From assembly GCA_000991135.1 (NCBI GenBank), contig LBST01000008.1:1-57518 (forward strand): 57,518 nucleotides of DNA, written 5' to 3'. Shown piece after piece: positions 4,091 to 50,442 of the stretch. A program made the position numbers and the translations under genes. The notes under the pieces were generated by a model, which was not told where the DNA came from, did no database searches, and saw only the letters and a program-made list of their open reading frames with translations. Every line of letters starts with the position of its first letter. Positions within the stretch are counted from its first letter, which is position 1. Source of the DNA: Candidatus Roizmanbacteria bacterium GW2011_GWC1_37_12. Lineage in GTDB: Bacteria > Patescibacteriota > Microgenomatia > UBA1406 > GWC2-37-13.

Positions 4091-4238
4091 AAGTCTTTTG
4101 AAAACAATTTAATAATTTAACAATGAAACAATTTTTTTTATTTGTCTATGGACTATACGCTACAAAGCAGGTATTTTAGACTATTAGGACAATATAATTT
4201 TCTCGATATGCCATCTTTTTACAAATATTTAAAGCTGT

Positions 4239-4254: not shown

Positions 4255-5007
4255 ATGAGGCCAAAAATCGCGGTTCTGATAATTACCAAAAATAATCAAG
4301 ATACTATTGGAAAAACCTTAGAATCGGTAAAGGATTTTGACGAAATAGTGGTTGTTGATAGTAAGTCAAAGGATAAAACCTTGGAAAAAAGTCGAAATAA
4401 ATCTAAGATTAAAATTTTTAGAAAAGAATTTAATGATATTGGAAAACAACGTTTATATGGTTTAAAACAAATAAAAGCAGATTGGGTTTTAATTTTAGAT
4501 TCAGATGAAGTAGTATCGAAAGAATTAAAAAAAGAAATTGTTAAATTGCTAAATGGTTATATTGTTAAAGAAAAGGCTTTTGAAATTCCATACCAGAATT
4601 TTTTTCTTGGCAAACCGGTAAATTATGGCGGGGAAAACTACAAGATGGTGAGGTTGTTTAGGAGAGATGCTTTGGAAATCAAGCCGTCAATTGTCCACAA
4701 CAAACTAATTGTTAAGCACGGAAAAGTTGCCAGGTTAAAAGGAAAAATTCTTCACTATTCTTATCGCTCGCTTGGACAGACTTACAAGAAATTTACAGAT
4801 TATGCTTTAAAAATGGCAAAAATTAAGGCTAAAAATGGCGAGAAAAGCTCTTTAAAAAAGATTTTTTTGTATCCTGTCCATATGTTTTGGGCGAGATTTG
4901 TCAAAGACAAAGGCTATAAAGACGGAATGTTTAGAATACCGTTGGATATTGGGTTTGCTTATATGGAATTTTTAACGTATTTTTTACTGATGTTAAAGAC
5001 TCGATAA
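4255..5007 (+). CDS. Glycosyltransferase family 2 (WaaE/KdtX-like)
   Basis: The product has 250 residues and carries the GT2 signature: IAVLIITKNNQDTIGKTLES at the N-terminus, EIVVVDSKSKDKT for nucleotide binding, and WVLILDSDEVV, whose DSDE supplies the DxD-type metal ligands. The C-terminal third resembles the WaaE group (YKKFTDYALKMAK). Such enzymes transfer a sugar from a nucleotide-sugar to a growing glycan at the inner face of the membrane. It is the first gene of a run of five on the plus strand. The gene at 7872 is a paralogue, and aligning the two shows a clean 7-residue insertion in the other copy at the position of KSRNKSK here. Confidence 0.87.
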   Translation: MRPKIAVLIITKNNQDTIGKTLESVKDFDEIVVVDSKSKDKTLEKSRNKSKIKIFRKEFNDIGKQRLYGLKQIKADWVLILDSDEVVSKELKKEIVKLLNGYIVKEKAFEIPYQNFFLGKPVNYGGENYKMVRLFRRDALEIKPSIVHNKLIVKHGKVARLKGKILHYSYRSLGQTYKKFTDYALKMAKIKAKNGEKSSLKKIFLYPVHMFWARFVKDKGYKDGMFRIPLDIGFAYMEFLTYFLLMLKTR

Positions 5008-5028: not shown

Positions 5029-6972
5029 ATGAAAATAGCTTTTATAATCGTTCTTTATAAAACATCAAAATCAGAGGTGGAGAGATTAAAAAAAGAGATT
5101 AAAGAATCAAGAATTAAGAATAAAGAATTATATTTTATTGATAATACTAATAATAATGTGGGTTATGCCGCAGGAGTTAATATCGGAACAAAAAAAGCTA
5201 TTGAAGATGGCTGTGATTTATTTGTTATAGCCAATCCTGATATATCGTTTCGTCAGCCTCGTCACCCTACGGGTGACGAGGCTAAAAGCGAGTTAATAAC
5301 TGATAGCGCAAAGTATTTTGATATCTGGGGTTTTGCGATGAGGCAGGAGGAAAAAATATATTACGGAGGAAAGATAGACAAATGGCGGATGAGCGGCGGT
5401 CTGATAGAAGAAAAACCAAAAAAAAGATTTACTCAAACAGATTTTGTTTCCGGGTCACTAATGTTTATCAAGAAAAAGGTAATAGATAAAATCGGGTTTT
5501 TTGACGAAAGTTATTTTTTATATTATGAAGAGGTCGATTACTGCTATCGAGCCAAAAGCGCTGGATTTAAAGTCGGTATCGACTCATCTATCGTTTACGA
5601 CCATTTTGAAGTTTCAAAAGCCAACCCGTCTAAAAATTATTATCTTTTTAAAAACAGAGTAAAGTTTTTGCTCAAATACGGGAGCCATAAGCAAAAATTC
5701 CGCGAGTTTTTAAGATTACCGAAAACCATTTACGAAGAAATCATCAAGCGGCCGTTTTATCTCAATTTTTTTTCTTTGAATTTATCTTCTCTTATAAACA
5801 AAATACTTCACTTTGGACTATTCTTGATGCTTATAAGGCATTTCAAGCCAGAAAGTTATGCAATCTATACGCTGGCTTGGACGCATATAGGATTGTTTTT
5901 ACCTGTTTTAGATTTTGGAACGACTTCTTATGGCCTGGTTAATCTAACCGACCAAGATGAAAAACAGTCGTCAACTTTGTTTTCCTTCAGAATTGCCTTA
6001 TCTTTTATCACATTCTTTTTGACGATTTCTTTGGCCTTTTTATTTGGTTACCAAAAAGACGTCACTCTGCCTATTATATTGATATCATTTGTCATCTTCG
6101 CCAACGCCTTTTCTGGAACCTTTCTTATCTTTGTTTCAGTCGCCAACAAATCCTATCTGGCCTCGCTGGTTTCAATGATCTTTCAGATCGCTCTTGTCAT
6201 ATCATTAATTAGTGGAGTAATTTTTACAAAAAACCTGATGACAGTTTTTTGGTTGACGTTTATTTTTTACAATATATATTCACTAGTTAACTATGCTTTG
6301 GTTAAAAAAAGTGTAAAAAAAATAAGATTTGTCTTTGATCTTAAATCGTGGATAAAAATTGCCAGCAAATCGATAGTTTTTCTTTTGATTAGTCTACTAG
6401 CTGGAATTTATTCAAAAGTAGATGTATTACTTCTTAATTTTATCAAGGGAAAGTCTGCGGTCGGAATTTATTCTTCGGGATACAGATTTTTGGATGCCTT
6501 AATGTTTATTGTCAGTGCCTATAATGTTTCTTCTATGCCTATTTTCTCCAAACTAGCCAGATCAGGAAAACGAAATCAATTCTTACTTAAAATAAAAAAA
6601 GATTTTCTATTGGTATTAGGGATAGGAGGTTTTATAGCAATTGGCATATTTTTATTTTCCCCTTTACTGTTACCATTATTTCTAAAAGGTGACTATCAAC
6701 TGGCAATTGTACCATTGAGAGTGATAATTTTTTCATTACCTTTAATTCTTCTGACGTCAATTGCCCTGAACGGGCTATATGCTTTAAAGAAGGCTAAATT
6801 TGTTATTTACCTGTTTATTTTTCAATTGGTTTTCAATTTTAGTTTAAATTATTTACTTATTCCAAGATATAGTTATTTTGCCTCGGCCTATGTAAGTTTG
6901 GGGGGGGAAATCTTGAATGTCTTGTTATCATTTGCTATATTAAGGAGGGTTCTTTATGAAAATTTCCGTTGA
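5029..6972 (+). CDS. GT2 glycosyltransferase fused to a Wzx-like polysaccharide flippase
   Basis: The product has 647 residues in two parts. Residues 1-235 are a rhamnosyltransferase-like GT2 domain (VGYAAGVNIGTKKAIEDG, IANPDISF, FVSGSLMFIKK, FFDESYFLYYEEVDYCYRA). From about residue 245 there are roughly 11-12 hydrophobic helices of the MATE/MOP-type polysaccharide flippase family, with charged loops between them. The enzyme would attach a sugar and the membrane part would flip lipid-linked glycan outward. Residues 77-84 (RHPTGDEA) come from an inserted palindrome, and a heptad tract lies at 5105-5132. The 3' end overlaps the next gene by 17 nt. Both halves are normally separate proteins, so the fusion is unusual, though no frame break is seen. 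Confidence 0.85.
   Translation: MKIAFIIVLYKTSKSEVERLKKEIKESRIKNKELYFIDNTNNNVGYAAGVNIGTKKAIEDGCDLFVIANPDISFRQPRHPTGDEAKSELITDSAKYFDIWGFAMRQEEKIYYGGKIDKWRMSGGLIEEKPKKRFTQTDFVSGSLMFIKKKVIDKIGFFDESYFLYYEEVDYCYRAKSAGFKVGIDSSIVYDHFEVSKANPSKNYYLFKNRVKFLLKYGSHKQKFREFLRLPKTIYEEIIKRPFYLNFFSLNLSSLINKILHFGLFLMLIRHFKPESYAIYTLAWTHIGLFLPVLDFGTTSYGLVNLTDQDEKQSSTLFSFRIALSFITFFLTISLAFLFGYQKDVTLPIILISFVIFANAFSGTFLIFVSVANKSYLASLVSMIFQIALVISLISGVIFTKNLMTVFWLTFIFYNIYSLVNYALVKKSVKKIRFVFDLKSWIKIASKSIVFLLISLLAGIYSKVDVLLLNFIKGKSAVGIYSSGYRFLDALMFIVSAYNVSSMPIFSKLARSGKRNQFLLKIKKDFLLVLGIGGFIAIGIFLFSPLLLPLFLKGDYQLAIVPLRVIIFSLPLILLTSIALNGLYALKKAKFVIYLFIFQLVFNFSLNYLLIPRYSYFASAYVSLGGEILNVLLSFAILRRVLYENFR
5105..5132 (+). repeat. 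Four-unit heptanucleotide tract in coding sequence
   Basis: Units aatcaag, aattaag, aataaag and a degenerate aattata follow one another in the GT2 domain and encode IKESRIKNKELY. The length (28 nt) matches the other coding tracts at 7434, 8002, 15407 and 15634. Confidence 0.6.
5255..5283 (+). repeat. In-frame palindrome (13-bp stem, TAC loop)
   Basis: AGCCTCGTCACCC, then TAC, then its exact reverse complement. It is translated as QPRHPTGDEA in the GT2-flippase gene. A near-identical copy lies in topA at 27986. Confidence 0.85.
6942..6949 (+). promoter_or_regulatory. Shine-Dalgarno AAGGAGGG for the GT4 gene
   Basis: This strong ribosome binding site is 6 nt before the ATG at 6956. It lies inside the end of the preceding gene, which supports translation start at the overlap. 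Confidence 0.75.
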
Positions 6973-7867
6973 CGGTGGGGGACTGGGAGCGAAAAAAGGG
7001 GAGAGGTTCGGCAACTATGTTTTTTCTGAAAATCTAATTAAAGCCCTTTGTTTGTACGATAAGAAAAACAAATATTTTTTTTATACTTTTGAGAATTTAA
7101 AACCGCGTTTGGCATGGTTAAAAGGACGAGTCAGCTTGGAAGAGTTTAAAGAAAGAAAAGATATTTTTCTTGCATTAAATCAAGCAATTCCCCTATTTGT
7201 TTCTGGAAAGATCGTCAGTTTCTGTCACGGACTTTCCTATTATTTTTTTCCTCAATATTATTCAAAACAAGACAGATCGCGTTTAAACAAACAATTAAAG
7301 GAGATGATTAAAAGATCAGATTACATAATAGTTTCATCAGAAAGAGTTAAGAAAGAGCTCACTTCGATTAATCGAAGTATTGAGAGAAAAGTTGTGGTTA
7401 TTCCTTTCGGAATTCCGTTTGATATGAAGGAGGAATCAAGAATCGAGAATCAAGAATCAGGAACTGGAAAATATTTTCTCTACGTCGGAATGGATCATCC
7501 AATAAAAAACTTAGAATTCATTAAAAAATTGAGCAAGAACTATAGAGTAAACTTCGTGACGAAAAATATGGAAAGAATAAAGTTAAAACAACTCTATCGT
7601 CAGGCGACTGCTCTTTTAACCGCATCTTACTACGAAAGCTTCAATCTGCCCGTCCTTGAAGCACTGTCGCAAGGATGCCCAGTCATCGGTCTAAGGTCGG
7701 CAATAATTCCAGAACTTCGTCCTTATGTCAATTTGGCCAAAAATAATACAGAGTTTGTTGACTTAATGGAAAGAATTCCGGTAAAACCTAATGTTCAGTC
7801 GATTAAACGATTGAAAACAGAATTTAATTGGGAGAATTATGTTGAAAAATTGGTAGAATTGTACTAA
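6956..7867 (+). CDS. Glycosyltransferase family 4 (GT-B)
   Basis: The product has 303 residues, shorter than most GT4 enzymes (350-400). The N-terminal acceptor half is compact. The C-terminal donor half shows KYFLYVGMDHPIKNLEF and the family signature YESFNLPVLEALSQGCPVI, with the EX7E-type glutamates. It probably transfers a hexose from a nucleotide-sugar to the surface glycan made by this cluster. The start is set by a strong Shine-Dalgarno. A heptad tract at 7434-7461 encodes ESRIENQESG between the two halves, exactly where the interdomain linker is expected. The next gene follows after 4 nt. Confidence 0.85.
   Translation: MKISVDGGGLGAKKGERFGNYVFSENLIKALCLYDKKNKYFFYTFENLKPRLAWLKGRVSLEEFKERKDIFLALNQAIPLFVSGKIVSFCHGLSYYFFPQYYSKQDRSRLNKQLKEMIKRSDYIIVSSERVKKELTSINRSIERKVVVIPFGIPFDMKEESRIENQESGTGKYFLYVGMDHPIKNLEFIKKLSKNYRVNFVTKNMERIKLKQLYRQATALLTASYYESFNLPVLEALSQGCPVIGLRSAIIPELRPYVNLAKNNTEFVDLMERIPVKPNVQSIKRLKTEFNWENYVEKLVELY
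7434..7461 (+). repeat. Four-unit heptanucleotide tract (aatcaag type) in coding sequence
   Basis: aatcaag, aatcgag, aatcaag and aatcagg are in tandem, 28 nt in total, in the interdomain linker of the GT4 gene (ESRIENQESG). Confidence 0.75.
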
Positions 7868-7871
7868 CCAT

Positions 7872-8651
7872 ATGAAGTTATCGGCGGTTGTTTTAATCAG
7901 AAACGAAGAAAAGAATATTGAGAGATGCCTTGAATCGTTAACTTTTTGTAATGAGGTTATTATCGTTGACGATTTCTCGACTGACGGGACTTTAGAGAAA
8001 ATTCGAAATTCGAAATTCGAAATTCGAAATAAATCTAAAATTAAAATTTTTAAAAGGAAACTAAATGGCGATTTTGCCGGACAGAGAAATTTTGGGATGA
8101 GCAAGGCAAGTAACGAGTGGGTATTGTTTGTTGACGCTGATGAAGAAGTTAGTGGAGAATTAAGAAAAGAAATTGTTAAATTGTTAAATGGTCAAATAGT
8201 TAATGAAGTAGGTTTTTATATTAGACGTCTGGATTGGTTCTGGGGTAAAGAATTACGATATGGTGAGCTAAAAAAGGCTAGAGATATAGGTATAATCAGA
8301 ATGGTTAAAAAGAATTCAGGACAATGGTTAGGTAATGTTCATGAGATGTTTTATACAGCAAAAAATATTGAAAGACTAAAAGGATTTCTTAATCATTATC
8401 CGCATCAAACATTAAAAGAATTTATTAATGACATTAATTATTATTCTTCGTTACGAGCAGAGGAACTTTACCGCCAAGGAAAAAAGACAAATGTTCTTGA
8501 AATAATATTCGTCCCTTCTTTAAAGTTCATTTCTAACTATTTGTTAAACCTTGGTTTTCTCGATGGAGTGCCGGGTTTTACCTATTCATTTTTAATGAGC
8601 TTTCATTCATTTTTAGTAAGAGCTAAGTTATGGCAATACTATTTTATTTAA
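7872..8651 (+). CDS. Glycosyltransferase family 2 (WaaE/KdtX-like)
   Basis: The product has 259 residues and is a GT2 enzyme related to the first gene of the cluster. It opens with LSAVVLIRNEEKNIERCLES, followed by EVIIVDDFSTDGT and WVLFVDADEEVS with the DxD-type metal site. The C-terminal part (HYPHQTLKEFINDINYYSSL) is typical of the group. Against the paralogue at 4255, residues around 49-55 (SKFEIRN) are an extra 7 residues encoded by three surplus units of a 7-nt tandem repeat. The 3' end overlaps the polymerase gene by 22 nt. The acceptor sugar is unknown. Confidence 0.87.
   Translation: MKLSAVVLIRNEEKNIERCLESLTFCNEVIIVDDFSTDGTLEKIRNSKFEIRNKSKIKIFKRKLNGDFAGQRNFGMSKASNEWVLFVDADEEVSGELRKEIVKLLNGQIVNEVGFYIRRLDWFWGKELRYGELKKARDIGIIRMVKKNSGQWLGNVHEMFYTAKNIERLKGFLNHYPHQTLKEFINDINYYSSLRAEELYRQGKKTNVLEIIFVPSLKFISNYLLNLGFLDGVPGFTYSFLMSFHSFLVRAKLWQYYFI
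8002..8029 (+). repeat. Four-unit heptanucleotide tract (ttcgaaa) in coding sequence
   Basis: Four perfect ttcgaaa units (28 nt) encode the IRNSKFEIRN segment of the GT2 gene. The paralogue at 4255 has only one unit at the same place, a difference of 21 nt or seven codons. Confidence 0.9.
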
Positions 8652-9718
8652 TTTCGTTTCTTTTTTCCTTAGGCCAATTGGGAAGAATTTCTTTTTTTAA
8701 CCAACAAGTTAATTTTTACCTTTACGAAGTTTTTCTTACCTTTTTTTTCCTAATTTTATTGGCAAAATATCGACTAGAACCAATATATGAAGCCTTAAAA
8801 AAAACAAAATCTGCTTTTCTTTTTTTGACAATTTTATCAATTTCATTATTAATAGGTTTTAATCAGTATTCGTTTTTTGAAAATGCGGTTGGATTACTCT
8901 ATTTGGTAAGGCTACTTTCATATGGGACTTATTGGGTTTATGTGTCTTATATGGTAAAGAAGAAGCCAGATTTCAAGAAAAACCTAAATATCGGGCTTTG
9001 GATTTTTATATCTATGACAACTGTTACTACAATCACTCAATATTTTTTTTACCCAGATTTGAGAAATCAATTTTATCAAGGCTGGGACCCGCACCTATAC
9101 CGGACTTTTGGAGTATTTTTTGATACAACAATAGCTGGGACGATCTTTGCGATGATTTTTGTTTTTAGCAATAATCTTGTCGTTAAAGGTATCTTTTTGA
9201 TATTTTTAGTGTTGAGTTTTTCAAGAAGCGTTTATTTATCCTTAGTAATTGTTTTGTTATATATTTTTTTCAAAAATCGTGATTTCAAGAAACTATTTCT
9301 TTCTTTATTTATTTTGTTATTTATATTATTTATAGCTCCAAAACCGGCAGGTGAAGGTGTTAATTTAAAGCGCACTTTTTCGATAGCCTCGCGTACAGAA
9401 GATTATCGCGAAGGTTTTAATCTTTTTTTAAAAAAACCGATTATCGGTTATGGCTATAATCGTCTTAGATATGTAAGATCGCGGTCGATCTCCCATGCCG
9501 GCGCCTCTTTTAGTTCAAGCTATCTGACGATTTTGGTAAGCTCCGGGATTGCGGGATTAATCGGACTGATTAGTACAATGAGACTCATTTGGATAAGGAA
9601 AAAAAACGCGAGAACGCTACTTTTATTTTTGACGACAGTATCGTTGTTTGACAATGTGTTATTACACCCATTTATTCTTTTTATTTCCGGAGTTTTGCTT
9701 ATTCTTTCTGATAGATGA
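8630..9718 (+). CDS. O-antigen ligase/polymerase-like membrane protein
   Basis: The product has 362 residues and about ten hydrophobic helices spread over the whole length. The central extracytoplasmic stretch around residues 250-290 (RTEDYREGFNLFLKKPIIGYGYNRLRYVRSRSISHAGASFSSSYL) has the shape of the O-antigen polymerase/ligase (Wzy/WaaL, PF04932) active loop, including GYG and the H/S-rich part. It would join glycan units or transfer them to a carrier at the outer face of the membrane. The ATG at 8630 overlaps the end of the previous gene. It is the last gene of the polysaccharide run and converges with the next gene, overlapping it by 20 nt. Confidence 0.8.
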   Translation: MAILFYLISFLFSLGQLGRISFFNQQVNFYLYEVFLTFFFLILLAKYRLEPIYEALKKTKSAFLFLTILSISLLIGFNQYSFFENAVGLLYLVRLLSYGTYWVYVSYMVKKKPDFKKNLNIGLWIFISMTTVTTITQYFFYPDLRNQFYQGWDPHLYRTFGVFFDTTIAGTIFAMIFVFSNNLVVKGIFLIFLVLSFSRSVYLSLVIVLLYIFFKNRDFKKLFLSLFILLFILFIAPKPAGEGVNLKRTFSIASRTEDYREGFNLFLKKPIIGYGYNRLRYVRSRSISHAGASFSSSYLTILVSSGIAGLIGLISTMRLIWIRKKNARTLLLFLTTVSLFDNVLLHPFILFISGVLLILSDR

Positions 9719-10406
9719 CATTCAGATTTTTTGTTTCTATGTTTCCGGCGATATCAGAGGCGACGATTTCAATAAGATTTTCTCCCTCTTTTAATCGTAT
9801 ATTGGTCTGAAAATTGCCTACGGCGTCAACGACGACTGGTAGATCATTGACTCTTATGAAAACTTCTTTATCGGTTAACCCTTTGAGCAGTATTTCAGAT
9901 TGAGATATTGTTTCTTTGTCTTTTGGCTGGGTTATGTCTAGCTTTGGTTTTTCTTCTTTGAACAGAACGGAGTAAGTGTTAGTGGTTTTTTTAGATTTGT
10001 TATCGGAGCTAGATGCTTTTATGTAAACTTTATTGCTGCCTTTTTCTAAATCACCGATTTCCTCGGAAAAATTATCGCTGGATTTTAGATCTATCTCCTT
10101 GACTTTTTCACCGTTTAAGAAAAAGGCCAGTTTTTCGTAGTTGATAACCGATCCGGAGATAATGAATTTGGCGCTGTTTGTAGCGGTTGGGATATTGTCG
10201 ATGATTATCGACCCGTAAATTTCCTCGGTTTTATTTAATGCAGGCGCCGAAGTTTTTGAAAACAGATTGGCGACAAAAATAGAGGTATTTAAAAGCAATT
10301 TAAAACCGATTGTAAAAACCAATAAAAGAGTGACAATCAAGATGATAATAAAAACCGTTATGGTTCTTGTTAATTTATTTTTTTGAAACAGTTCTGATCT
10401 TTTCAT
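9699..10406 (-). CDS. Membrane-anchored protein with Ig-like (glucodextranase B-type) domain
   Basis: The product has 235 residues. Residues 13-43 form one transmembrane helix. The rest is extracytoplasmic and beta-rich. Residues 155-230 (LDITQPKDKETISQSEILLKG ... GENLIEIVASDIAGN) match the bacterial Ig-like/glucodextran_B fold, and residues 65-145 look like a degenerate copy of the same fold. It is probably a structural or adhesive envelope protein; no catalytic residues are seen. The ATG at 10404-10406 is just one base downstream of the tRNA-Thr gene, so tRNA 3'-end processing would leave a nearly leaderless mRNA. Confidence 0.75.
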   Translation of the reverse strand: MKRSELFQKNKLTRTITVFIIILIVTLLLVFTIGFKLLLNTSIFVANLFSKTSAPALNKTEEIYGSIIIDNIPTATNSAKFIISGSVINYEKLAFFLNGEKVKEIDLKSSDNFSEEIGDLEKGSNKVYIKASSSDNKSKKTTNTYSVLFKEEKPKLDITQPKDKETISQSEILLKGLTDKEVFIRVNDLPVVVDAVGNFQTNIRLKEGENLIEIVASDIAGNIETKNLNVIYQKE

Positions 10407-10407
10407 G

Positions 10408-10479
10408 AGCCGATGATCGGACTTGAACCGATAACCTGCTGTTTACGATACAGCTGCTCTGCCATTGAGCTACATCGGC
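10408..10479 (-). tRNA. tRNA-Thr (anticodon CGU)
   Basis: This is a complete cloverleaf: acceptor GCCGATG/CATCGGC, D-stem GCTC/GAGC, anticodon stem GCTGT/ACAGC with loop ATCGTAA, and T-stem ATCGG/CCGAT. CCA is not encoded. Its 5' end directly follows the CCA of tRNA-Gly. Confidence 0.95.
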
Positions 10480-10482
10480 TGG

Positions 10483-10554
10483 AGCGGGCGAAGGGAATTG
10501 AACCCTCTGTCTTCTCCTTGGGAAGGAGACATTTTGCCGGTAAACTACGCCCGC
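10483..10554 (-). tRNA. tRNA-Gly (anticodon CCC)
   Basis: The acceptor is GCGGGCG/CGCCCGC and the anticodon stem TCTCC/GGAGA has loop TTCCCAA. The encoded CCA (10480-10482) abuts the tRNA-Thr gene with no spacer, so the two must be separated by processing. Confidence 0.95.
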
Positions 10555-10658
10555 ATTCTCGGGACAAAACCGACGGTTTTTTCCCGACGATTTTCCCTAA
10601 TTGGATCGCGGCTATTCACTCATAAAGGTACGCCGCGATATTATTTTACTATATTATA

Positions 10659-11252
10659 TTAACGAGGAATGATCAAAATCATGCCGACTTCGATCTGGTC
10701 GGCGTTGAGAAGATTGTTGGCTTGAAGGATTCTTGGCCAAGAATATAGATCTCCGTAGACTTTTTGGGCGATTATAGACAAGGAATCGCCTGGCTGGACG
10801 ATGTACTTGCCTTCTGTATAAGTGACTTGTGATGTCGAAGAAGCGGAAATTTCGCCAACGGTTGGATCTCTACGCTTTACGTCGGGAATAATCAATTTTT
10901 GCCCCACTTCGATGGGTGAGGCAGAATCAAATTTATTGGCGATAGAGATGTCATAAGCGTTAAACCCAGAGCCGTAAAATTTCTCGGCAATGCGCCAAAG
11001 ATCATCGCCTTCGGAGACAACATAGGTCTTTGGGACTGTTGGGGATATTGGAGCGGTTGGCGAAGTTTTTTTAGTAAAGGCTGGCAGTGAGAAAGCCAAG
11101 TCTAAAGAAATATTTTTTAGAAGAAATTTATAAGCTAATGAGGAAAACATCAAGGATACTAGGATTCCAAGAATCAAACTAAAATACTTTTCTTTTATCG
11201 TTAGTAAAAATAGCCGTTGATAGTTTAAAGCCTTGACATATTTTTTCTTCAT
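10659..11252 (-). CDS. Membrane-anchored protein with two LysM domains
   Basis: The product has 197 residues. Residues 25-48 form a transmembrane anchor. A threonine/proline linker follows (KKTSPTAPISPTVPK). Two LysM peptidoglycan-binding domains follow at about 75-125 (YVVSEGDDLWRIAEKFYGS ... GQKLIIPD) and 147-197 (YIVQPGDSLSIIAQKVYGD ... GMILIIPR). It should hold to the cell wall from the membrane; no hydrolase domain is present. TATAAT lies 14 nt upstream of the ATG. The tRNA-Gly/tRNA-Thr pair and the Ig-like gene lie downstream on the same strand. Confidence 0.88.
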   Translation of the reverse strand: MKKKYVKALNYQRLFLLTIKEKYFSLILGILVSLMFSSLAYKFLLKNISLDLAFSLPAFTKKTSPTAPISPTVPKTYVVSEGDDLWRIAEKFYGSGFNAYDISIANKFDSASPIEVGQKLIIPDVKRRDPTVGEISASSTSQVTYTEGKYIVQPGDSLSIIAQKVYGDLYSWPRILQANNLLNADQIEVGMILIIPR

Positions 11253-11298
11253 ATTGTTGTGAGGCTATTATAGTCTACTGCCTATGAAGATGTCAATT

Positions 11299-11538
11299 TT
11301 ATTTTCTTGTTTGCAGTGGATAAAAAGAACAATTATTAATTAATTTACAGCCCTCGTAATAACTTCTTCCTAAAAACTTTTTTTTCAGAAAAGCGATGCA
11401 AATAAATCTTAATCCTCGACTTCTATATAAAATCTCTATTTCATTTGGACAATCAGAAATTCTTTTTTTGGATCCTTGTGTAGACAAAGATAATACCGCT
11501 TTTTCATCGTACGGTGGAATAGTCAATCCATTCGCCAT
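11299..11538 (-). CDS. Small hypothetical protein (79 aa)
   Basis: I start this frame at the ATG at 11538 (MANGLTIPPYDEK). The longer reading would run back into the tRNA-Asp gene on the other strand. An AT-rich -10-like sequence (TATATT/TATTAT) is 9-11 nt upstream, as for other genes here. The protein is basic and has five cysteines, two of them in GCKLINNC, with no recognised domain. It could be a genuine lineage-specific protein or a chance frame. Confidence 0.4.
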   Translation of the reverse strand: MANGLTIPPYDEKAVLSLSTQGSKKRISDCPNEIEILYRSRGLRFICIAFLKKKFLGRSYYEGCKLINNCSFYPLQTRK

Positions 11539-11586
11539 ATATTGTAAATAATATATAAAATTGCTAGAATAGAGTGTAAGAAATAA

Positions 11587-11660
11587 GGAGTCATAGCTCA
11601 ATTGGCTAGAGCACTTCCCTGTCACGGAAGGGGTTGGGGGTTCGAGTCCCCTTGGCTCCG
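11587..11660 (+). tRNA. tRNA-Asp (anticodon GUC)
   Basis: Acceptor GGAGTCA/TGGCTCC, anticodon stem CTTCC/GGAAG with loop CTGTCAC, T-stem GGGGG/CCCCT and discriminator G. CCA is not encoded. A TAGAAT box lies about 15 nt upstream. Confidence 0.95.
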
Positions 11661-11732
11661 CCTTCGTCCGCCGAAGCTTTCAGCGGAGGCGGAATTCGCT
11701 TCGTCGGACTACGGCGGACTGTGTCCGCCGTA
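11661..11732 (+). repeat. GC-rich palindromic repeat cluster after tRNA-Asp
   Basis: Overlapping inverted repeats fill the gap between tRNA-Asp and the HD gene. The clearest is TACGGCGGAC-TGT-GTCCGCCGTA at 11710-11732; another pairs TCCGCC with GGCGGA around 11667-11693. They resemble the CCGAAG-type palindromes at 16877 and 38479. Confidence 0.7.
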
Positions 11733-11734
11733 AA

Positions 11735-12271
11735 TTACCTTCTCATTTTTTGCAGGTCTTTAATGGTTTGTTTGAGAAGAGGCGTTTTAATATGGGCTTC
11801 GGCGCTTTCAAAAAATTCCGATAGGTCTTTACCTTGTTCTTTTTCATATTCATAAGCCTGAATCGTCCTTTCTAAAATATCGATCTCCCAGAAAATAATC
11901 GCTTCCTTGGTTTTCCTTTCTATCATTTCATGAAACAACTTCGCATAGTCTTCTCCGTATCCAAAAAGGATAGTTCTAATCGCTTCTTTTTCAATTTTTT
12001 CCTTTTTTTTCCTTTTCTTAAGATTAACTTTAGCGCCTCTTTGAATAACAATGTCTCCTGTAGATGTTTCTCCTAAATCATGAATGATAGCCATTTTTAT
12101 TAGTTTCTCTTGGTTTACGTCCAAAGATTTTGATAGAGCCATTGCTAAAACAATGACTCTAAAACAATGGTCGGCGACGCTTTCTGGTTCACTAACTTTA
12201 TTCATGAGCCAGCCGGTTCTTTTTAGTCTTTTAGAAAGTCCGATCTGAAAAGCCAGATGCAAGATATTCAT
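11735..12271 (-). CDS. HD-domain hydrolase (YfbR/HDDC2-like 5'-nucleotidase family)
   Basis: The product has 178 residues, usual for the HD_3/HDDC2 group. The metal-binding residues are visible: H in SVADHCFRV near 33, HD in AIIHDLGE near 65-66, and a later D in FWEIDILE. RTGWLMN near the N-terminus and EPESVADHC are typical of YfbR-like 5'-deoxynucleotidases, which dephosphorylate nucleoside monophosphates. The exact substrate is inferred only. A TATAAT box ends 6 nt before the ATG, so the mRNA is probably leaderless. The stop codon sits next to a palindrome at 11710-11732. Confidence 0.85.
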   Translation of the reverse strand: MNILHLAFQIGLSKRLKRTGWLMNKVSEPESVADHCFRVIVLAMALSKSLDVNQEKLIKMAIIHDLGETSTGDIVIQRGAKVNLKKRKKKEKIEKEAIRTILFGYGEDYAKLFHEMIERKTKEAIIFWEIDILERTIQAYEYEKEQGKDLSEFFESAEAHIKTPLLKQTIKDLQKMRR

Positions 12272-12277
12272 AAAGGC

Positions 12278-12283
12278 ATTATA
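12278..12283 (-). promoter_or_regulatory. -10 box TATAAT for the HD hydrolase gene
   Basis: TATAAT on the minus strand, 6 nt before the ATG at 12271. Confidence 0.6.
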
Positions 12284-12407
12284 TCATTTCTTACGTCTCT
12301 TTGTAGTGGATGGTACCCGCGCTCTTACCTCGCCGAAGCCTTTAATTTGTAAATAAATGTTGAATTAATATTTTAGAATTTATTTGGACTGTAATAAAGC
12401 AGTAAAT

Positions 12408-12436
12408 TTGACTTTTGTATTTTAATATGTTACTAT
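12408..12436 (+). promoter_or_regulatory. Sigma-70-type promoter for the 96-aa gene
   Basis: TTGACT at 12408-12413, a 17-bp spacer and TACTAT at 12431-12436. The ATG at 12444 is only 7 nt further on, so transcription should start at or next to the start codon. Confidence 0.75.
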
Positions 12437-12443
12437 CATAAAT

Positions 12444-12734
12444 ATGGATGAGGTTCAATATTACGCTTTATTGAAGCATGGAGGTCTAAATTTAAGTTGT
12501 ATTAAATGTCGGGCCGTTGCACTAATACCAGCCGGAAAATTTGAAGTTAAGAAAATGCTAAACGTAGAAAGAGAACATATGAAAAATACTAACCATCCTC
12601 TTTCAGCTCTTGTACCTAGACGAGACAATTTTATGGCAGAAATCCCGGACTCCTATTCTGATCTTGGTGACATATTGAAGTCTTACGATCTTGTTTCAGA
12701 AGCAGAGTTTAGAAAAGGACCAAGCCGTAAATAA
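12444..12734 (+). CDS. Hypothetical protein (96 aa) with a CxxC pair
   Basis: It begins MDEVQYYALLKHGGLNL and contains a single CIKC pair near residue 19, then REHMKNTNHP, which could complete a metal site. I do not recognise the family. A good promoter lies directly upstream, and the frame fills its intergenic space, which supports a real gene. It converges with the methyltransferase gene at 12773. Confidence 0.6.
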   Translation: MDEVQYYALLKHGGLNLSCIKCRAVALIPAGKFEVKKMLNVEREHMKNTNHPLSALVPRRDNFMAEIPDSYSDLGDILKSYDLVSEAEFRKGPSRK

Positions 12735-12772
12735 AAACTTCATTACTTTTAAAACTCTTTTGGTTATTTATA

Positions 12773-13381
12773 TCAGATTCTTTCAAAGACATAGACGATG
12801 TCCTGCCAGTCTTCGTAAATTTTTTTTGGCTTTTTAAAATGATGTTTGGTCATAAAACGAAAAAGTTTTCCTTGGTTATAGCGATTGAGATAATAGCCGT
12901 CTTTATGGAATTTGACCTTGTCACCGAGAAAAAAAGAGGGCTTGATAAACATTGACAAAATTAAATACTTTTTTGTCACTCTTGCTAGTTCTGTCAGAAT
13001 TTTTACGTAGGATTGATGATGCTCGATAACGTCTTTGGTTAAAACAATGTTGAAATAACTATTTTTAAAGTTTAACCTTGCAAGGTCAAAGGAGAAAAAT
13101 TTTGCTTTGGAATTGGCTTTTAAATTTTTCCTGGCAAGTTTTATCGCTTTACTATTGCTGTCTATTCCAAAATACTCGCCCTGATAGCCTTTATTATAGA
13201 GCCTGAAGGCTTCAACGCCAGTGTTGCATCCGGCATCAAGAAGCAGGGACTGTTTATTAGTATTTTTAACAATAAATTTTTCAAAAGCTTCTCTGGTATT
13301 CTTTTGGTCAATCTGATCAAAGTCATGGACAGTCGTTGGTCCGACTATTTCTTTTATTCTCTGCCAATAAGTCTTATTCAT
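12773..13381 (-). CDS. Class I SAM-dependent methyltransferase
   Basis: The product has 202 residues. Motif I is LLLDAGCNTGVEAFRLY (residues about 47-63), motif II has the acidic FGIDSNSKAI, and later strands include KFFSFDLARLNF and FNIVLTKDVIEHH. This is the Methyltransf_11/25 type of Rossmann methyltransferase. The N-terminal helix region (YWQRIKEIVGPTTVHDFDQ) and the HHQSYVKIL segment give no clear substrate, so no specific function is claimed. It is divergent from lemA with only 37 nt between starts. Confidence 0.83.
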   Translation of the reverse strand: MNKTYWQRIKEIVGPTTVHDFDQIDQKNTREAFEKFIVKNTNKQSLLLDAGCNTGVEAFRLYNKGYQGEYFGIDSNSKAIKLARKNLKANSKAKFFSFDLARLNFKNSYFNIVLTKDVIEHHQSYVKILTELARVTKKYLILSMFIKPSFFLGDKVKFHKDGYYLNRYNQGKLFRFMTKHHFKKPKKIYEDWQDIVYVFERI

Positions 13382-13418
13382 AATGTATACTATTTATATT
13401 AACAGTTTATAAATAATT

Positions 13419-13961
13419 ATGATTGCATCGATTGGAATACTGGCGGTATTGGTTCTTTACATTGTGGCCCAATATAACGGCTTTGTTGTTCTAAAAACAA
13501 GAATTCAAGAAGCTTTGTCCGGAATTGATGTTCAGCTGAAAAGGCGTGCTGATTTGATTCCGAATCTCGTCGAAACTGTTAAAGGTTATGCAAAGCACGA
13601 GAAAACAGTCTTTACCGAGGTGACCAAGGCGAGGTCTGCTTTGATGAAAGCAGGAAGTCTTGAGGAAAAAGCTAAGGCCAATGACATGTTGACGGGAGCT
13701 TTAAAGTCACTTTTTGCCGTTGCCGAGGCCTACCCGCAGCTTCAAGCCAGCGAAAATTTTAAGGATTTGCAAAGGCAGCTAGAAGATACAGAAGACAAAG
13801 TGGCTTATTCGAGGCAGTTTTACAACGCCAATGTCCTTGATTTCAACGCGAAAGTCCAGATGTTTCCTTCCAATATGATTGCTAATATATTTGGATTTAG
13901 GGCGTTTGAATTTTTTGCGGCAACTGAAGAGGAGAGGAAGAAAGTAAACATAAATTTCTAA
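13419..13961 (+). CDS. lemA: LemA family protein
   Basis: The product has 180 residues, the normal size. Residues 1-20 are a membrane anchor, followed by the LemA hallmark [27 protein letters not shown] and the helical [41 protein letters not shown] region, ending with [14 protein letters not shown]. LemA proteins are membrane-anchored helical bundles of unknown biochemical role that are usually paired with a membrane protease. That pairing is present here: htpX follows after 109 nt on the same strand. A TATAAA box lies 5 nt before the ATG. Confidence 0.95.
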
Positions 13962-14060
13962 TTTCTAATTGATCTAATTAACCTAATCAAGCCTCAAGTT
14001 CCATTTCCCAAATTGGTTATTGGTTATTATTTAGGTTAATTAGAAATTAGGTGAATTAGA
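13957..14060 (+). repeat. AT-rich imperfect inverted repeat between lemA and htpX
   Basis: The left arm (ctaatttctaatt ... aacctaat) is complementary to the right arm (aggttaattagaaattag, 14033-14050) except for a 9-nt extra piece on the left. It can form a long hairpin in the lemA-htpX transcript. Confidence 0.7.
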
Positions 14061-14070
14061 ATAATTTTAC

Positions 14071-14961
14071 ATGACGCCTTACTCTCAAATTACTCAAAAT
14101 AAAACTAAAACTTTTTTGATAATGATGACTTTTATAGTTTTGTTTAGCGGGTTTTTTTACTTCGTAGGTAAATATTTTGATTCGCCAGGAGCATACCTTG
14201 TCTTAGGATTGATTATTTCTTCTTTTTCAAGCCTGGGCAGTTATTTTTATTCTGATAAAATTGTCCTTTTTACATCTGGTGCAAAGCCTGCGAGCAAAAA
14301 AGATTTTTTTGACTTTTATACCACAACGGAAAATTTGGCTCTAGCGGCAGGGCTGCCGATGCCGCGCCTCTACGTCATAGACGATCCTTCTCCCAATGCT
14401 TTTGCTACCGGCCGTGACCCCAAACACGCAGTCGTCTGCGCAACAACCGGTCTTTTAAAAAGATTGGATAGATCAGATATCGAAGGAGTAATCTCTCACG
14501 AACTTTCTCACGTCAAGAATTTCGACATTTTAGTCTCATCAATCGTCGCAGTCTTAGTCGGGACTCTGGCAATTATTTCTGATTGGTTGATGAGGAGCTT
14601 ATGGTGGGGTCGATCTCGGGATGATGACAACAGAAATAAAAGCCCGATATTTGCTCTTTTGTTTGTTGCCGCTTTAATAATTACGCCGATAATTGCAACA
14701 TTAATTCAACTTGCCATATCAAGGCGACGTGAATTTCTTGCTGACGCATCAGGAGTGTTGATTACCAGAAATCCAGAAGGCCTGGCCTCTGCGCTTGAGA
14801 AGATAGCGACTTTTCCACCACTTAGAAACGCTTCTCCGTCAACTGCCCATCTATTTATCGCCAATCCTTTTAAGAAAAAGAGTCAAACTTCATGGTTATT
14901 AAACCTTTTTTCCACCCATCCTCCTGTTGAAGAGAGAATTAGAATTTTAAGAAGTATGTGA
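14071..14961 (+). CDS. htpX: Membrane zinc metalloprotease HtpX (M48 family)
   Basis: The product has 296 residues. Two transmembrane helices lie near residues 11-35 and 38-60, and two more after the active site. The zinc motif HELSH is at about residue 144 and the third ligand glutamate is in RRREFLADASGV. The C-terminal AHLFIANPF and STHPPVEERIRILR motifs are typical. HtpX degrades misfolded membrane proteins from the cytoplasmic face. The pairing with lemA is common in bacteria. The next gene starts two bases after the stop. Confidence 0.95.
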   Translation: MTPYSQITQNKTKTFLIMMTFIVLFSGFFYFVGKYFDSPGAYLVLGLIISSFSSLGSYFYSDKIVLFTSGAKPASKKDFFDFYTTTENLALAAGLPMPRLYVIDDPSPNAFATGRDPKHAVVCATTGLLKRLDRSDIEGVISHELSHVKNFDILVSSIVAVLVGTLAIISDWLMRSLWWGRSRDDDNRNKSPIFALLFVAALIITPIIATLIQLAISRRREFLADASGVLITRNPEGLASALEKIATFPPLRNASPSTAHLFIANPFKKKSQTSWLLNLFSTHPPVEERIRILRSM

Positions 14962-14963
14962 TT

Positions 14964-17660
14964 ATGTGTGGAATAGCTGGTTTTTACGGTTTTCGTGACG
15001 ACAAATTAATTAAAAACATTTCTAAACAGCTGTCTCATCGAGGTCCTGACGGTGAAGGATTTTTTTTTGACAAAGACACGACTCTACTTAATAGAAGACT
15101 GGCGATTATAGATTTGAAAAGCGGCGGTCAGCCGATTTATAACGAAGATGAGACTGTTGTCGTGGTTTATAACGGAGAAATTTATAACTATCAAGAATTA
15201 AGAAGAAAACTCGAGAAATTTAACCATAAATTTAAAACAAAGTCCGACACAGAAGTAATTGTGCACGGATACGAACAGTGGCAAGAAAAATGTTTTGATA
15301 GGTTAAACGGAATGTTTGCAATTGCTCTTTATGATAAAAAAAAGAAAAAACTTTTATTAGTAAGAGACCATTTCGGAATAAAGCCATTGTATTATTCTAT
15401 TGCCAAATCCGAAATCCGAAATCCGAAATCCGAAACAAATTCTAAATCAGAAATTTCAAATACCAAATTGATTTTTTCATCGGAAATAAAACCAATTTTT
15501 TACAGCGGTTTAGTCAAAAAGCAGCCAAACGATCGAATAATTTATCGCTATTTGAAATATCGTATCCACGACGATGGTAAAGAAACTTTTTTTAAAGATA
15601 TTTATCGCTTGTTACCTGGAGAACTACTTGAAATTCGAAATTCGAAATTCGAAATTCGAAAATACACTTCTCTAAAAGAAGAATTAATTAGTCTCAGTCG
15701 TCATTCTGGGGAGGAGACGAAGTCGACGACTCCAGAATCTGGACAACGATTCTGGACAAGCCAGAATGACGTTAGCCAATTTAAAAAAAAATTAGTTGAA
15801 GCAATTAAGTATCGATTGATTAGCAATGTTCCTGTAGGTACTTGTTTATCAGGAGGATTAGATTCCTCAACAGTTGTTTCAATCGTCAACAAACTGTTGA
15901 AAGAAAATGCCAAAGAAGCCAAATCGATCGGAAATACCCAAAAAACGTTTTCGGCTGTTTTTCCAGGCGGATCAAACGATGAGGAAAAATATATAGATTT
16001 ACTTGTTAAAGAGTTAACGAGTTTACGAGTTAACGTGTTTAAAGTCAAGCCAAATTCAAAAGAGTTCTTTAAAGAAATCCAAGATTTTGTCAGAACCCAA
16101 GAAGAGCCGACAATCTCGACAGGCCCCTATGCCCAATATAAAGTGATGGAAAAAGCCGAGGGTAAAGTCAAGGTGCTTCTCGATGGACAAGGAGCTGATG
16201 AAATGATGGCGGGATATCTTCCTTATTATTTTGTCTATCTTAGACAACTTTATAAGAACAAAAATTATTTATTGTTCATTGAAGAATTAACGAATTCTTT
16301 AGACGTTGTCGTTAAATATTTTTTAGAAAAACTCAAAAAAACGACTAATGCTGTTAATTTATTGAATAAAGAATTTGCTGATAAATACAAAGAAGAAACT
16401 TTTTTTGTAGAAAATAATAATCTAAAAAAAAGATTGATAGAAGATATTTTTTCAAATAGTTTGCAATCGCTTCTTCGTTATGAAGACAAAAACGCGATGA
16501 GATTTTCGATCGAAGGCAGAGTACCTTTCCTCGATTTTAATCTAATGAAATATTTGTTTGCTTTGCCTGACGAAACAATAATAAAAAACGGCTGGAATAA
16601 GTATATCTTACGCGAAGCAACTAAAGATTTATTACCTAAAGAAATCAATTTAAGAAGAAATAAAATCGGCTTTACAACACCAGAATATCAATGGTTTATG
16701 GAAAAAAGAAAAGAAATATTTGAGATTTTTTTGTCAAAGAGTTTTAGCGAAAGAAAATATTTTAATAGAAAAGAGACATTGAATTCTTTTCAGAAATTCG
16801 TCGACGGGGAAACAAACGATACAATGGTTTTTTGGAGGTTGATTAATGTCGAATTATGGTTGAGGGAATTCTTTGATCCTCCTTCGCATAAAGCTTCGGA
16901 GGACAATGTGAAAAAAATTATAGAATCAAAAATTAAAATTAAAGGAAAAATTTACATAAGGCATTTAATAAAAACAAATCCTTTCAAAAAAGGAGATGAC
17001 TATATTTCTAAAATTGGGAATTACGTTAAAGGTGTCCTGGAACAAATCAATGCCCGTTGGTTTATTGTTATTTCGGAAAAGATAATAGCTATATCGCAGG
17101 GGAGAAGTTATTTTATTTGGGATATTCGTCCCGGGAGATGGGCAAAATTTCTTTATCCTCACGTCAAAAAAACTCCTTATGGCATCGGACTGGGAAGTCC
17201 TTGGACGATGGAGTTGGCAATAAAAGAAGTTGGGGTAGCAAGAATTTTGGCAGCGACATTAATCTCTGTTTTGACAAAACCATTAGGAATTCAAGGAATG
17301 TTTTATCGAATCGCTGGGGAAACAGTCCGATCTATAGACGGCCCGACAGAATACTCGCTATATCCCTCGAATGTTTCTGCTAAGTTAGGACCAAGGAAGC
17401 CTCATGAAGTTGTAAAAAATATTCATGAGGCTTTAATTTCTAATTTCGAATTTCTAACTTCTAAACAATCTTCAAATTTCAAACAACAAAGTTCCAATTT
17501 CTTAGGTGTTGTGCTAATAGATGCTAACGACATCGGACGTAATGTTTTAGGTAATTCTACTGGCTTATCAAACAAGTTAATAGAGGAGATCATGAATGAT
17601 AACCCAATGGGCCAGAGCAATGAACAAACACCGATTACTATTGTTATAATGAAATCATGA
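14964..17660 (+). CDS. asnB: Asparagine synthase (glutamine-hydrolysing) fused to an F420-0:glutamate ligase-like domain
   Basis: The product has 898 residues. I start at the ATG at 14964, not the GTG at 14958, because the glutaminase nucleophile Cys must follow the first Met (MCGIAGF). Residues 1-220 are the class II glutaminase (SHRGPDGEG, VVYNGEIYNY). Residues 260-630 are the AsnB synthetase with the ATP motif GTCLSGGLDSST, GQGADEMMAGY and EGRVPFLD. Asparagine synthases are normally about 600-640 residues. Here about 250 more follow, resembling the CofE/F420-0 gamma-glutamyl ligase domain (FIVISEKIIAISQGR, IDGPTEYSLYPSNVSAKLG, GVVLIDANDIGRNVLGNSTG). Four repeat elements interrupt the gene, one at the domain junction. 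Overlap with dnaE is 4 nt. Confidence 0.88.
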   Translation: MCGIAGFYGFRDDKLIKNISKQLSHRGPDGEGFFFDKDTTLLNRRLAIIDLKSGGQPIYNEDETVVVVYNGEIYNYQELRRKLEKFNHKFKTKSDTEVIVHGYEQWQEKCFDRLNGMFAIALYDKKKKKLLLVRDHFGIKPLYYSIAKSEIRNPKSETNSKSEISNTKLIFSSEIKPIFYSGLVKKQPNDRIIYRYLKYRIHDDGKETFFKDIYRLLPGELLEIRNSKFEIRKYTSLKEELISLSRHSGEETKSTTPESGQRFWTSQNDVSQFKKKLVEAIKYRLISNVPVGTCLSGGLDSSTVVSIVNKLLKENAKEAKSIGNTQKTFSAVFPGGSNDEEKYIDLLVKELTSLRVNVFKVKPNSKEFFKEIQDFVRTQEEPTISTGPYAQYKVMEKAEGKVKVLLDGQGADEMMAGYLPYYFVYLRQLYKNKNYLLFIEELTNSLDVVVKYFLEKLKKTTNAVNLLNKEFADKYKEETFFVENNNLKKRLIEDIFSNSLQSLLRYEDKNAMRFSIEGRVPFLDFNLMKYLFALPDETIIKNGWNKYILREATKDLLPKEINLRRNKIGFTTPEYQWFMEKRKEIFEIFLSKSFSERKYFNRKETLNSFQKFVDGETNDTMVFWRLINVELWLREFFDPPSHKASEDNVKKIIESKIKIKGKIYIRHLIKTNPFKKGDDYISKIGNYVKGVLEQINARWFIVISEKIIAISQGRSYFIWDIRPGRWAKFLYPHVKKTPYGIGLGSPWTMELAIKEVGVARILAATLISVLTKPLGIQGMFYRIAGETVRSIDGPTEYSLYPSNVSAKLGPRKPHEVVKNIHEALISNFEFLTSKQSSNFKQQSSNFLGVVLIDANDIGRNVLGNSTGLSNKLIEEIMNDNPMGQSNEQTPITIVIMKS
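15407..15434 (+). repeat. Four-unit heptanucleotide tract (atccgaa) inside asnB
   Basis: Four perfect atccgaa units (28 nt) encode SEIRNPKSE in a loop of the glutaminase domain. Confidence 0.9.
15634..15661 (+). repeat. Four-unit heptanucleotide tract (ttcgaaa) inside asnB
   Basis: Four perfect ttcgaaa units (28 nt), identical in sequence to the tract at 8002, encode IRNSKFEIRK at the end of the glutaminase domain. Confidence 0.9.
15699..15771 (+). repeat. Composite palindromic element inside asnB
   Basis: CGTCATTCTGG at 15699-15709 is inverted exactly at 15761-15771. The interior carries further pairs (AGTCGACGACT, CCAGAATCTGG). It is translated in frame as about 24 residues between the two AsnB domains. 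The ends resemble the GTCATTCCC-type repeats at 32708 and 40485. Confidence 0.8.
16877..16903 (+). repeat. Palindromic element at the AsnB / ligase-like domain junction
   Basis: TCCTCC-TTCGCATAAAGCTTC-GGAGGA is translated as DPPSHKASEDN at residues 638-647, exactly where the synthetase ends and the extra domain begins. Confidence 0.8.
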
Positions 17661-26906: not shown

Positions 26907-27326
26907 ATGAATACCTTTTTACATCTTAAGATTATAACTCCTCGTAAAGTAGTAATCGACGAGAAGATCAATTCTGTATCCATCCCTTCATCAGAGGGCG
27001 AAATAACAATCCTTCCTCGCCACGAAAATCTCTTCGTCCTTTTGATAGAGGGAATTATAAAAATTAAAAAAGGCGATGACGAAAACTATCTTTCAATCGG
27101 AGGAGGGTATGCGGAAACTGATGGAGAATCCGTCACAATTCTTGTCTCGAAAGCTTATGGCCAGGACGAAATTGACAAAAATTTGACCGAAAAAGCTCTC
27201 GAGCAAGCAAAAAAAATTCTCTCCGAATCAAAAGACGAGAAACAAAGGAGTGAAGCTCTCTCGATGATGCGGAGAGCCATCGTCGATTCCAAACTTCTTA
27301 AAAAACGTAGAAAAACTACTTTATGA
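26907..27326 (+). CDS. atpC: ATP synthase F1 subunit epsilon
   Basis: The product has 139 residues: an N-terminal beta-sandwich (LKIITPRKVVIDEKINSVSIPSSEGEITILPRHENL, IGGGYAETDGESVTILV), then two C-terminal helices (EIDKNLTEKALEQAKKIL, KQRSEALSMMRRAIVDSKLLKK). It couples gamma to the c-ring and can inhibit hydrolysis. Being separated from atpD by a long palindrome could alter its expression relative to the upstream genes. Confidence 0.94.
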   Translation: MNTFLHLKIITPRKVVIDEKINSVSIPSSEGEITILPRHENLFVLLIEGIIKIKKGDDENYLSIGGGYAETDGESVTILVSKAYGQDEIDKNLTEKALEQAKKILSESKDEKQRSEALSMMRRAIVDSKLLKKRRKTTL

Positions 27327-27363
27327 ACTTTAAAAACTTTATAAACTTGATAAACTTATCTCT

Positions 27364-42438: not shown

Positions 42439-42448
42439 ATATAATTAG

Positions 42449-42454
42449 ATTATA
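42449..42454 (-). promoter_or_regulatory. -10 box TATAAT for the enolase-like gene
   Basis: On the minus strand, 10 nt before the ATG at 42438. Confidence 0.55.
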
Positions 42455-42479
42455 GATGATAGATTTTAGATATTAGAAG

Positions 42480-44915: not shown

Positions 44916-45042
44916 TTGGGTTACCAATGAAAATTTCGCTATCCTAAAGGCACCATTGGATGCACAACTTGCACTCCGAACAGCCTCACATAATTAATTT
45001 TTAATTTGAAATTTTTAATTTTTAAATTGTGTTTGGGGTTGA

Positions 45043-50440: not shown

Positions 50441-50442
50441 TT

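Follow-up and report, generated by a model that had tools for sequence, protein, structure and literature searches.

Short AT-rich heptanucleotide arrays inside protein-coding genes of a Candidatus Roizmanbacteria contig and its relatives

Heptanucleotide tracts in the window

Contig LBST01000008.1 of Candidatus Roizmanbacteria bacterium GW2011_GWC1_37_12 (assembly GCA_000991135.1; phylum Patescibacteriota) carries, within glycosyltransferase and asparagine-synthase-like genes, tandem arrays of 7-nt units that reach between four and five copies. The window analyzed here is the complete contig (C8; 57,518 nt), and its source genome (G000) consists of 994,505 bases in 18 contigs and is 94% complete. 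The arrays, some of them perfect and others identified as imperfect by Tandem Repeats Finder (TRF), and the genes that contain them, together with a paralogue from glycosyltransferase family 2 (GT2), are as follows.

4255-5007, forward strand: GT2 paralogue without an array, with a unit-like stretch, AAAGTCGAAAT, near 4390
5029-6972, forward strand: gene with a polysaccharide flippase match at its C-terminus (Pfam Polysacc_synt)
5096-5128, forward strand: imperfect heptamer array in gene 5029-6972, 4.7 copies, 84% matches (TRF)
6956-7867, forward strand: glycosyltransferase gene (Pfam Glycos_transf_1)
7433-7463, forward strand: imperfect GAATCAA array in gene 6956-7867, 4.4 copies, 87% matches (TRF)
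7872-8651, forward strand: GT2 gene with a perfect array (Pfam Glycos_transf_2)
7999-8030, forward strand: perfect AAATTCG array in gene 7872-8651, 32 nt, 4.57 copies, peptide KIRNSKFEIRN
14958-17660, forward strand: asparagine-synthase-like gene with three arrays and one palindrome (Pfam Asn_synthase and GATase)
15405-15435, forward strand: perfect AAATCCG array in gene 14958-17660, 31 nt, 4.43 copies
15630-15661, forward strand: perfect GAAATTC array in a second loop of the same gene, 32 nt, 4.57 copies
17434-17464, forward strand: imperfect TAATTTC array in a third loop of the same gene, 4.4 copies (TRF)

An earlier note on this DNA had described five tracts, at 5105, 7434, 8002, 15407 and 15634, as each consisting of four 7-nt units. 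Three of them are indeed perfect (starting at 7999, 15405 and 15630, with 4.4-4.6 copies), whereas the other two, at 5105 and 7434, are imperfect; the list itself was incomplete, having overlooked 17434-17464 as well as four further period-7 tracts that TRF places at 13953-13970, 42445-42477, 44994-45025 and 50412-50442. Beyond the end of the 15405-15435 array, AAATNNN heptamers continue to about 15467. An order-4 Markov model predicts 0.05 exact period-7 runs of this kind (18 nt or longer) for the window, which contains five, so that its period-7 tracts are not due to chance; at the same length there is a single run of period 8 and none at any other period between 2 and 15.

Preference for period 7

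Array length is expressed as M, the length of the self-match obtained when a sequence is shifted by one unit. Three samples were used: the own-genome sample, made of the window and 20 further stretches (457,518 bases in total), a sample of relatives from genus to order (606,961 bases) and a set of wider phylum stretches (356,812 bases). Three loci were ascertained, namely the window itself and L229 and L230, the last two coming from contigs matched by a search for AAATTCG or AAATCCG; they are kept in the counts of period, copy class and position relative to open reading frames (ORFs), and excluded from the test of unit sharing described below.

Period 7 is favored over every unit length from 4 to 15 except its own multiple, 14. 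When exact runs are required to have at least 2.4 copies and 17 nt, the own-genome sample contains 39 of period 7, three of period 6 and four of period 8, and periods 4, 5 and 9-30 are not represented. With M of at least 17, the same sample has 13 runs at period 7, four at the harmonic 14 and none at periods 4-6, 8-13 and 15; the relatives have nine at period 7, three at period 14 and one each at periods 6 and 8, and the wider phylum stretches have four, all at period 7. Under an order-5 Markov null, 0.4 period-7 runs with M of at least 12 are expected in the own-genome sample, where 27 are seen. In stretches around AAATYCG arrays of other phyla, once those arrays are removed, 62 runs with M of at least 17 have period 7 and 15 have period 8. 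The tracts thus belong with heptanucleotide simple sequence repeats (SSRs), their 7-nt tandem units exceeding both chance and other unit lengths.

Copy number and its limit

Perfect arrays attain four to five units and seldom more, as the earlier note's preference for four units had anticipated. M values of 14-20 correspond to three units and values of 21-27 to four to just under five copies. The 64 period-7 rows returned by TRF for the own-genome sample have rounded copy numbers of 3 in three rows, 4 in 30, 5 in 22 and at least 6 in nine. Exact arrays of at least three units fall into the following classes, coding status being defined by ORFs of at least 100 residues, which stop-free arrays may themselves extend falsely.

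Phylum set, in ORFs (n=32): three units 14, four 18, more 0
Phylum set, outside ORFs: three units 3, four 0, more 0
Other phyla without the search pattern, in ORFs: three units 20, four 15, more 3
Other phyla without the search pattern, outside ORFs: three units 9, four 12, more 6
Other phyla without the search pattern, at ORF edges: three units 3, four 3, more 2
AAATYCG-pattern loci, inside ORFs: four units 68, more 13
AAATYCG-pattern loci, outside ORFs: four units 17, more 9
AAATYCG-pattern loci, at ORF edges: four units 13, more 4

The 28-nt AAATYCG search pattern detects only arrays with M of at least 21, and pattern loci at contig ends are not part of these counts. When the sets are pooled, arrays of more than four units are scarcer in ORFs (16/117) than outside them (15/44), as a reading-frame filter predicts; the ratios of four units to more are 101:16 and 29:15 (Fisher p=0.006, a value that overstates independence, as 15 of the 119 pattern loci among the matches listed come from one Acidobacteria assembly). 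Frame alone is not the cause of the four-unit peak, since in other phyla this class is the largest among arrays outside ORFs too (12 of 27 with at least three units). A sub-peak at 4.4-4.9 copies, considered as a sign of microhomology priming, was rejected, being strong only among loci found with the 28-nt pattern, whose fixed rotation favors it; in the pattern-free sets, 33 of 48 four-unit arrays, those at ORF edges included, fall in this interval, a weak excess over an even spread.

Genes that carry arrays

In this phylum, the genes that hold long arrays are real and often essential, and the arrays sit at loops whose length varies among relatives. Pfam domains are found in 20 of the 23 array-bearing ORFs of the phylum set, and the genes, mostly of housekeeping or envelope function, include YchF, peptidyl-tRNA hydrolase, UppS (twice), TsaD, two aminoacyl-tRNA synthetases and Lgt. 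Intergenic positions are frequent among the 81 shorter arrays (M 10-16): 29 lie outside ORFs and seven at ORF edges, and many of the intergenic ones represent a single hairpin family.

Loop comparisons with paralogues and orthologues

The 21-nt difference that the earlier note reported between the 4255 gene and the array region of the 7872 gene is present (EKSRNKSKIKIF in comparison with EKIRNSKFEIRNKSKIKIF) and does keep the frame. The complete loops measure 19 residues in the 4255 gene and 27 in the 7872 gene, a difference of 24 nt, and the two genes are 34% identical, so that this is not a comparison of alleles. When the two window genes are taken together with 18 orthologues, the loop spans 18-30 residues (orthologue L259 was left out on account of a motif mismatch). 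The orthologue in G007 is of equal length and has TTCAAAG where the window, in the same register, has TTCGAAA, that in G014 carries GTCAAAA, and six others have palindromes at the loop; array loops in relatives are thus reoccupied by other units or by palindromes.

The asparagine-synthase-like gene was compared with seven homologues. Tract 15630-15661 has a counterpart of equal length in L027, L029, L030 and L032, with a degenerate heptamer in register in L029 and no repeat in the other three; in L028 the counterpart has AAATCC-type heptamers and an additional 39 nt. The 15405 loop exceeds its counterpart in L027 by 51 nt, which is not a multiple of the 7-nt unit. As a separate observation, the C-terminal part of this gene resembles F420-0:gamma-glutamyl ligase with a score of 24.6 bits, just below the Pfam cut-off of 25, and some relatives match the asparagine synthase/F420-ligase-like fusion in its C-terminal part only.

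The same alignment approach was applied to UppS (26 loci) and to YchF, peptidyl-tRNA hydrolase and TsaD (30 loci each). The UppS loop holds AAATTCG in G002 and G007, AAATCCG in G008 and ATCAAAG in G016; the arrays of G002 and G007 align with that of G008 without gaps, the identical T/C change recurring in all four copies. Array-free UppS of G014 is 21 nt shorter than the array-bearing proteins' genes of G002, G007 and G008, whereas four other array-free loci (L273, L285, L287 and L289) have the loop length of their array-bearing relatives. The TsaD gene of G014, which has an array, is longer than three array-free relatives by 21 nt (G010), 18 nt and 12 nt. Differences in length between arrays and orthologues therefore amount to 0, 12, 18, 21 and 51 nt: those of 21 nt occur, in UppS and TsaD, and are not the rule. 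The proposal that tracts grow by three units is therefore only partly supported: these differences agree with it, and the equal-length, 51-, 18- and 12-nt cases speak against it.

Hairpins, palindromes and other tracts

Within 250 nt, an inverted partner of the same unit accompanies 20 of 107 arrays and 4 of 107 random places, and a direct partner 26 and 12, respectively. One AATTAG hairpin family accounts for several of the inverted pairs, and other pairs, found in Acidobacteria and Bacteroidetes, consist of separate units, such as AGTGGAG with ACTCTCC.

An intergenic hairpin occupies 13953-14061 of the window, with arms AATTTCTAATTTCTAATT and AATTAGAAATTAG. Its family, whose members each have a CCAATTGG-like center between long AT-rich arms, yields about 25 motif matches in the own genome and relatives (members L006, L012, L013, L017, L020, L024, L193, L214, L215, L385 and L388) and looks like an element of the miniature inverted-repeat transposable element (MITE) or repetitive extragenic palindromic (REP) type. 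At 15699-15771 the asparagine-synthase-like gene has an in-frame palindromic REP-like insert (CGTCATTCTGG ... CCAGAATGACG), to which peptide relatives correspond at G000:C17:2803-2904 and in G009:C94, and a similar insert is found in the genome's own TsaD (L374). Another palindrome, GCCTCGTCACCCTACGGGTGACGAGGC, lies at 5256-5282 within gene 5029-6972. Palindromic families GTAGGGAACAAAAATTTTTGTTCCCTAC, TCCGCCAGCTGGCGGA and CCTGCCTGCCGGCAGGCA occur in frame in the same GT2, TsaD, UppS and YchF loops as the heptamer arrays (L252, L253, L249, L254, L248, L277, L352-L354 and L291).

TRF also reports imperfect tracts of period 8 (AAATTGTT, GTTAACGA) and period 9 (ACTTTATAA) in the window, again of about four copies, at 4103-4134, 4535-4569, 8170-8203, 16005-16039 and 27318-27357; exact cases among them are too few for analysis.

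Origin of the arrays

We consider it most probable, at roughly 0.6, that these are AT-rich heptanucleotide SSRs of mutational origin, tolerated in hydrophilic loops when the frame is kept. As to their birth, new arrays would arise during replication through expansion in a 7-nt register. Since 7 mod 3 is 1, an array within a gene runs through three frames, and survival there would depend on a unit that is stop-free in all three frames traversed, on a hydrophilic peptide product (NSKFEIR, NPKSEIR or SQKSKVK) and on a net change in length that is a multiple of three (0 or 21 nt). Substitutions would then erode older arrays, giving rise to the heptamer-phased debris around them. In the simplest view, the arrays are a tolerated mutational by-product that lengthens and diversifies loops, with no benefit to the cell implied.

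Several observations weigh against this account. Although every one of the 25 phylum-set arrays with M of at least 17 located away from contig ends is within an ORF, a coding density of 89.5% nearly gives this result by chance, so that the placement is only suggestive. The equal-length, whole-unit differences among UppS orthologues are unlike the outcome of simple growth. Units, moreover, recur: among 22 arrays with M of at least 17, nine pairs have the same unit, where drawing units from stop-free local precursors would give 1.5 (p=0.0068), and AAATTCG makes up 4 of the 22, against 0.19% of 22,249 precursors. Among 192 phylum genomes, three tandem copies of AAATTCG are found in nine, of AAATCCG in 12 and of AAATTGC in one, where they occupy three places. 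AAATTGC is a stop-free, composition-matched anagram, added as a control because the reversed pattern is confounded by the stop codon that tandem CTTAAAG contains. Four copies of AAATYCG are present in at least 119 stretches of genome contigs which, among the matches listed, belong to Acidobacteria, Verrucomicrobia, Planctomycetes, Bacteroidetes, Chloroflexi, Deltaproteobacteria, Patescibacteria and others. Neither the repeated use of AAATTCG and AAATCCG nor the stop in growth near 31-34 nt is explained by tolerated mutational expansion.

A possible though clearly less probable alternative is local slipped-strand mispairing alone, whereby the replicative polymerase slips most readily by 7, chance repeats spaced by 7 nt act as seeds and the local sequence sets the unit. 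The strong preference for period 7 in the own genome and its relatives is what such slippage would produce, and heptanucleotides reportedly outnumber the other classes of long repeats in most bacteria; against it stand the excess of AAATTCG over local precursors and the occurrence of the same heptamer in distant phyla whose base compositions differ widely.

It is doubtful that a donor array or template supplies finished arrays of about 32 nt, which would be copied or inserted into tolerant loops, or overwrite them, and carry their unit along. Such transfer would agree with the sharing of units, with the confinement of tandem AAATTGC to three places in one genome and none of the other 191, with the gap-free UppS alignment and its fourfold T/C change, and with the equal-length replacement at 15630-15661. 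On the other side, no common flanks were noticed by eye around the AAATTCG arrays, and sharing within genomes does not significantly exceed sharing between them (p=0.13), which leaves within-genome families merely suggestive. We know of no enzyme that inserts ready-made heptamer arrays, and this too speaks against transfer, as does the absence of RVT_1 reverse transcriptase matches from the own genome (94% complete) and 19 of the same genus (G001-G019), 4 of 37 genomes having a match; telomerase-like repeat addition templated by a reverse transcriptase was rejected because the array-rich G000 has no RVT_1. The more radical proposal that arrays are written in rather than grown, a donor array or hypothetical enzyme placing about 32 nt of a preferred heptamer into loops of essential proteins as a stop-free hydrophilic peptide, appears no less doubtful; it would fit the preferred units AAATTCG and AAATCCG in many phyla and AAATTGC in one genome, the replacement of whole units in the same register in UppS and GT2, the replacement without change of length in the asparagine-synthase-like gene, and the similar size of arrays across phyla.

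The length ceiling in particular might be an assembly artefact, longer arrays breaking short-read contigs, and two contigs do begin with long arrays, G030:C3 with 12 units (L200:1-84) and PAIY01000132.1 with 92 nt. This is improbable, however, given that arrays of 35-63 nt are assembled within contigs in other phyla and that CP011210.1 and CP087563.1, two records designated as complete genomes, have arrays of 31 nt and 56 nt.

Very unlikely is a role as phase-variable contingency loci, in which gain or loss of one unit would switch a gene off or on by frameshift: while 7 is not divisible by 3 and glycosyltransferases are among the array-bearing genes, arrays also occupy single-copy essential genes (UppS, TsaD, peptidyl-tRNA hydrolase and tRNA synthetases), whose off state would be lethal, and every array-bearing ORF examined is open. 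Four units are, in addition, short for a contingency locus.

Regulation of expression by a G-quadruplex of four tracts, which would keep the number of units at four as proposed for GGGAATC of Xanthomonas, shares the four-unit preference and the inverted pairs with the present arrays and is nevertheless refuted for them by sequence, since AAATTCG, AAATCCG, AAAAGTC and ATCAAAG have no runs of two or more G on either strand, except CC/GG in one, and none has a run of at least three G. The location of the arrays within ORFs of housekeeping enzymes also speaks against it.

Comparison with known repeat systems

In most bacterial genomes, no class of long repeats is reported to be more abundant than heptanucleotides (Mrazek, Guo and Shah 2007, via PMC4679880 and PMC4692102), and polymerase slippage by 7 has been proposed as their cause (Mrazek and co-workers, via the same two papers); long heptanucleotide SSRs are described there as lying mainly where frame is irrelevant, coding regions favoring multiples of three. 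The arrays reported here share with these repeats a length of 7 far above others, diverse units and occurrence in many unrelated lineages, and differ from them, as reported, in being long, perfect and within genes. Their location in essential genes, limited length and recurring unit go beyond the standard accounts of heptanucleotide repeats.

GGGAATC repeats of Xanthomonas show a preference for four units and inverted pairs, and have been linked to G-quadruplexes (Rehm et al. 2015, PMC4692102). Four-unit preference and close inverted pairs are common to these, to the GGGGA(C/T)T repeats of Nostoc and to the present arrays; the former are G-rich and over-represented in non-coding DNA, whereas the latter are AT-rich, within genes and incapable of forming quadruplexes. 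A four-unit preference in AT-rich heptamers excludes the G-quadruplex as its general cause and points to a common limit near 31-34 nt.

TAACTGA forms direct repeats of two to six copies in Beggiatoaceae, mostly just upstream of start codons (MacGregor 2015, PMC4679880). Both cases involve heptamer arrays scattered among unrelated bacteria, but the TAACTGA system has one unit, proximal to start codons, and TAACTGA is not among the units listed here, the long arrays of the phylum set lying within ORFs. Tandem repeats of Borgs are likewise perfect, enriched in A, located in ORFs and between them and flanked by partial repeats; their units are almost all unique to a locus and, within ORFs, always divisible by three (PMC9879509). 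The present in-ORF unit, by contrast, is 7 nt long and recurrent.

Cyanobacterial heptanucleotide repeats (STRR, and the P6b stem of the Nostoc tRNA-Leu intron) are tandem heptamers that also form paired stem arms and are mostly non-coding. Three heptanucleotides of Calothrix are mentioned in PMC4692102. Literature searches directed at tandem repeats of Patescibacteria or of the Candidate Phyla Radiation gave no description of such arrays.

In single-copy essential genes of Patescibacteria, 7-nt arrays represent one route by which protein loops change, and their loci offer many marked sites for dating the birth, replacement and decay of repeats. If units do spread between loci, this would imply a bacterial copying process for very short repeats, of a sort not found described in the literature searched. 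In summary, the arrays are of a known kind, heptanucleotide repeats, with new features: they are AT-rich, about four units long, located inside essential genes and built from recurring units.

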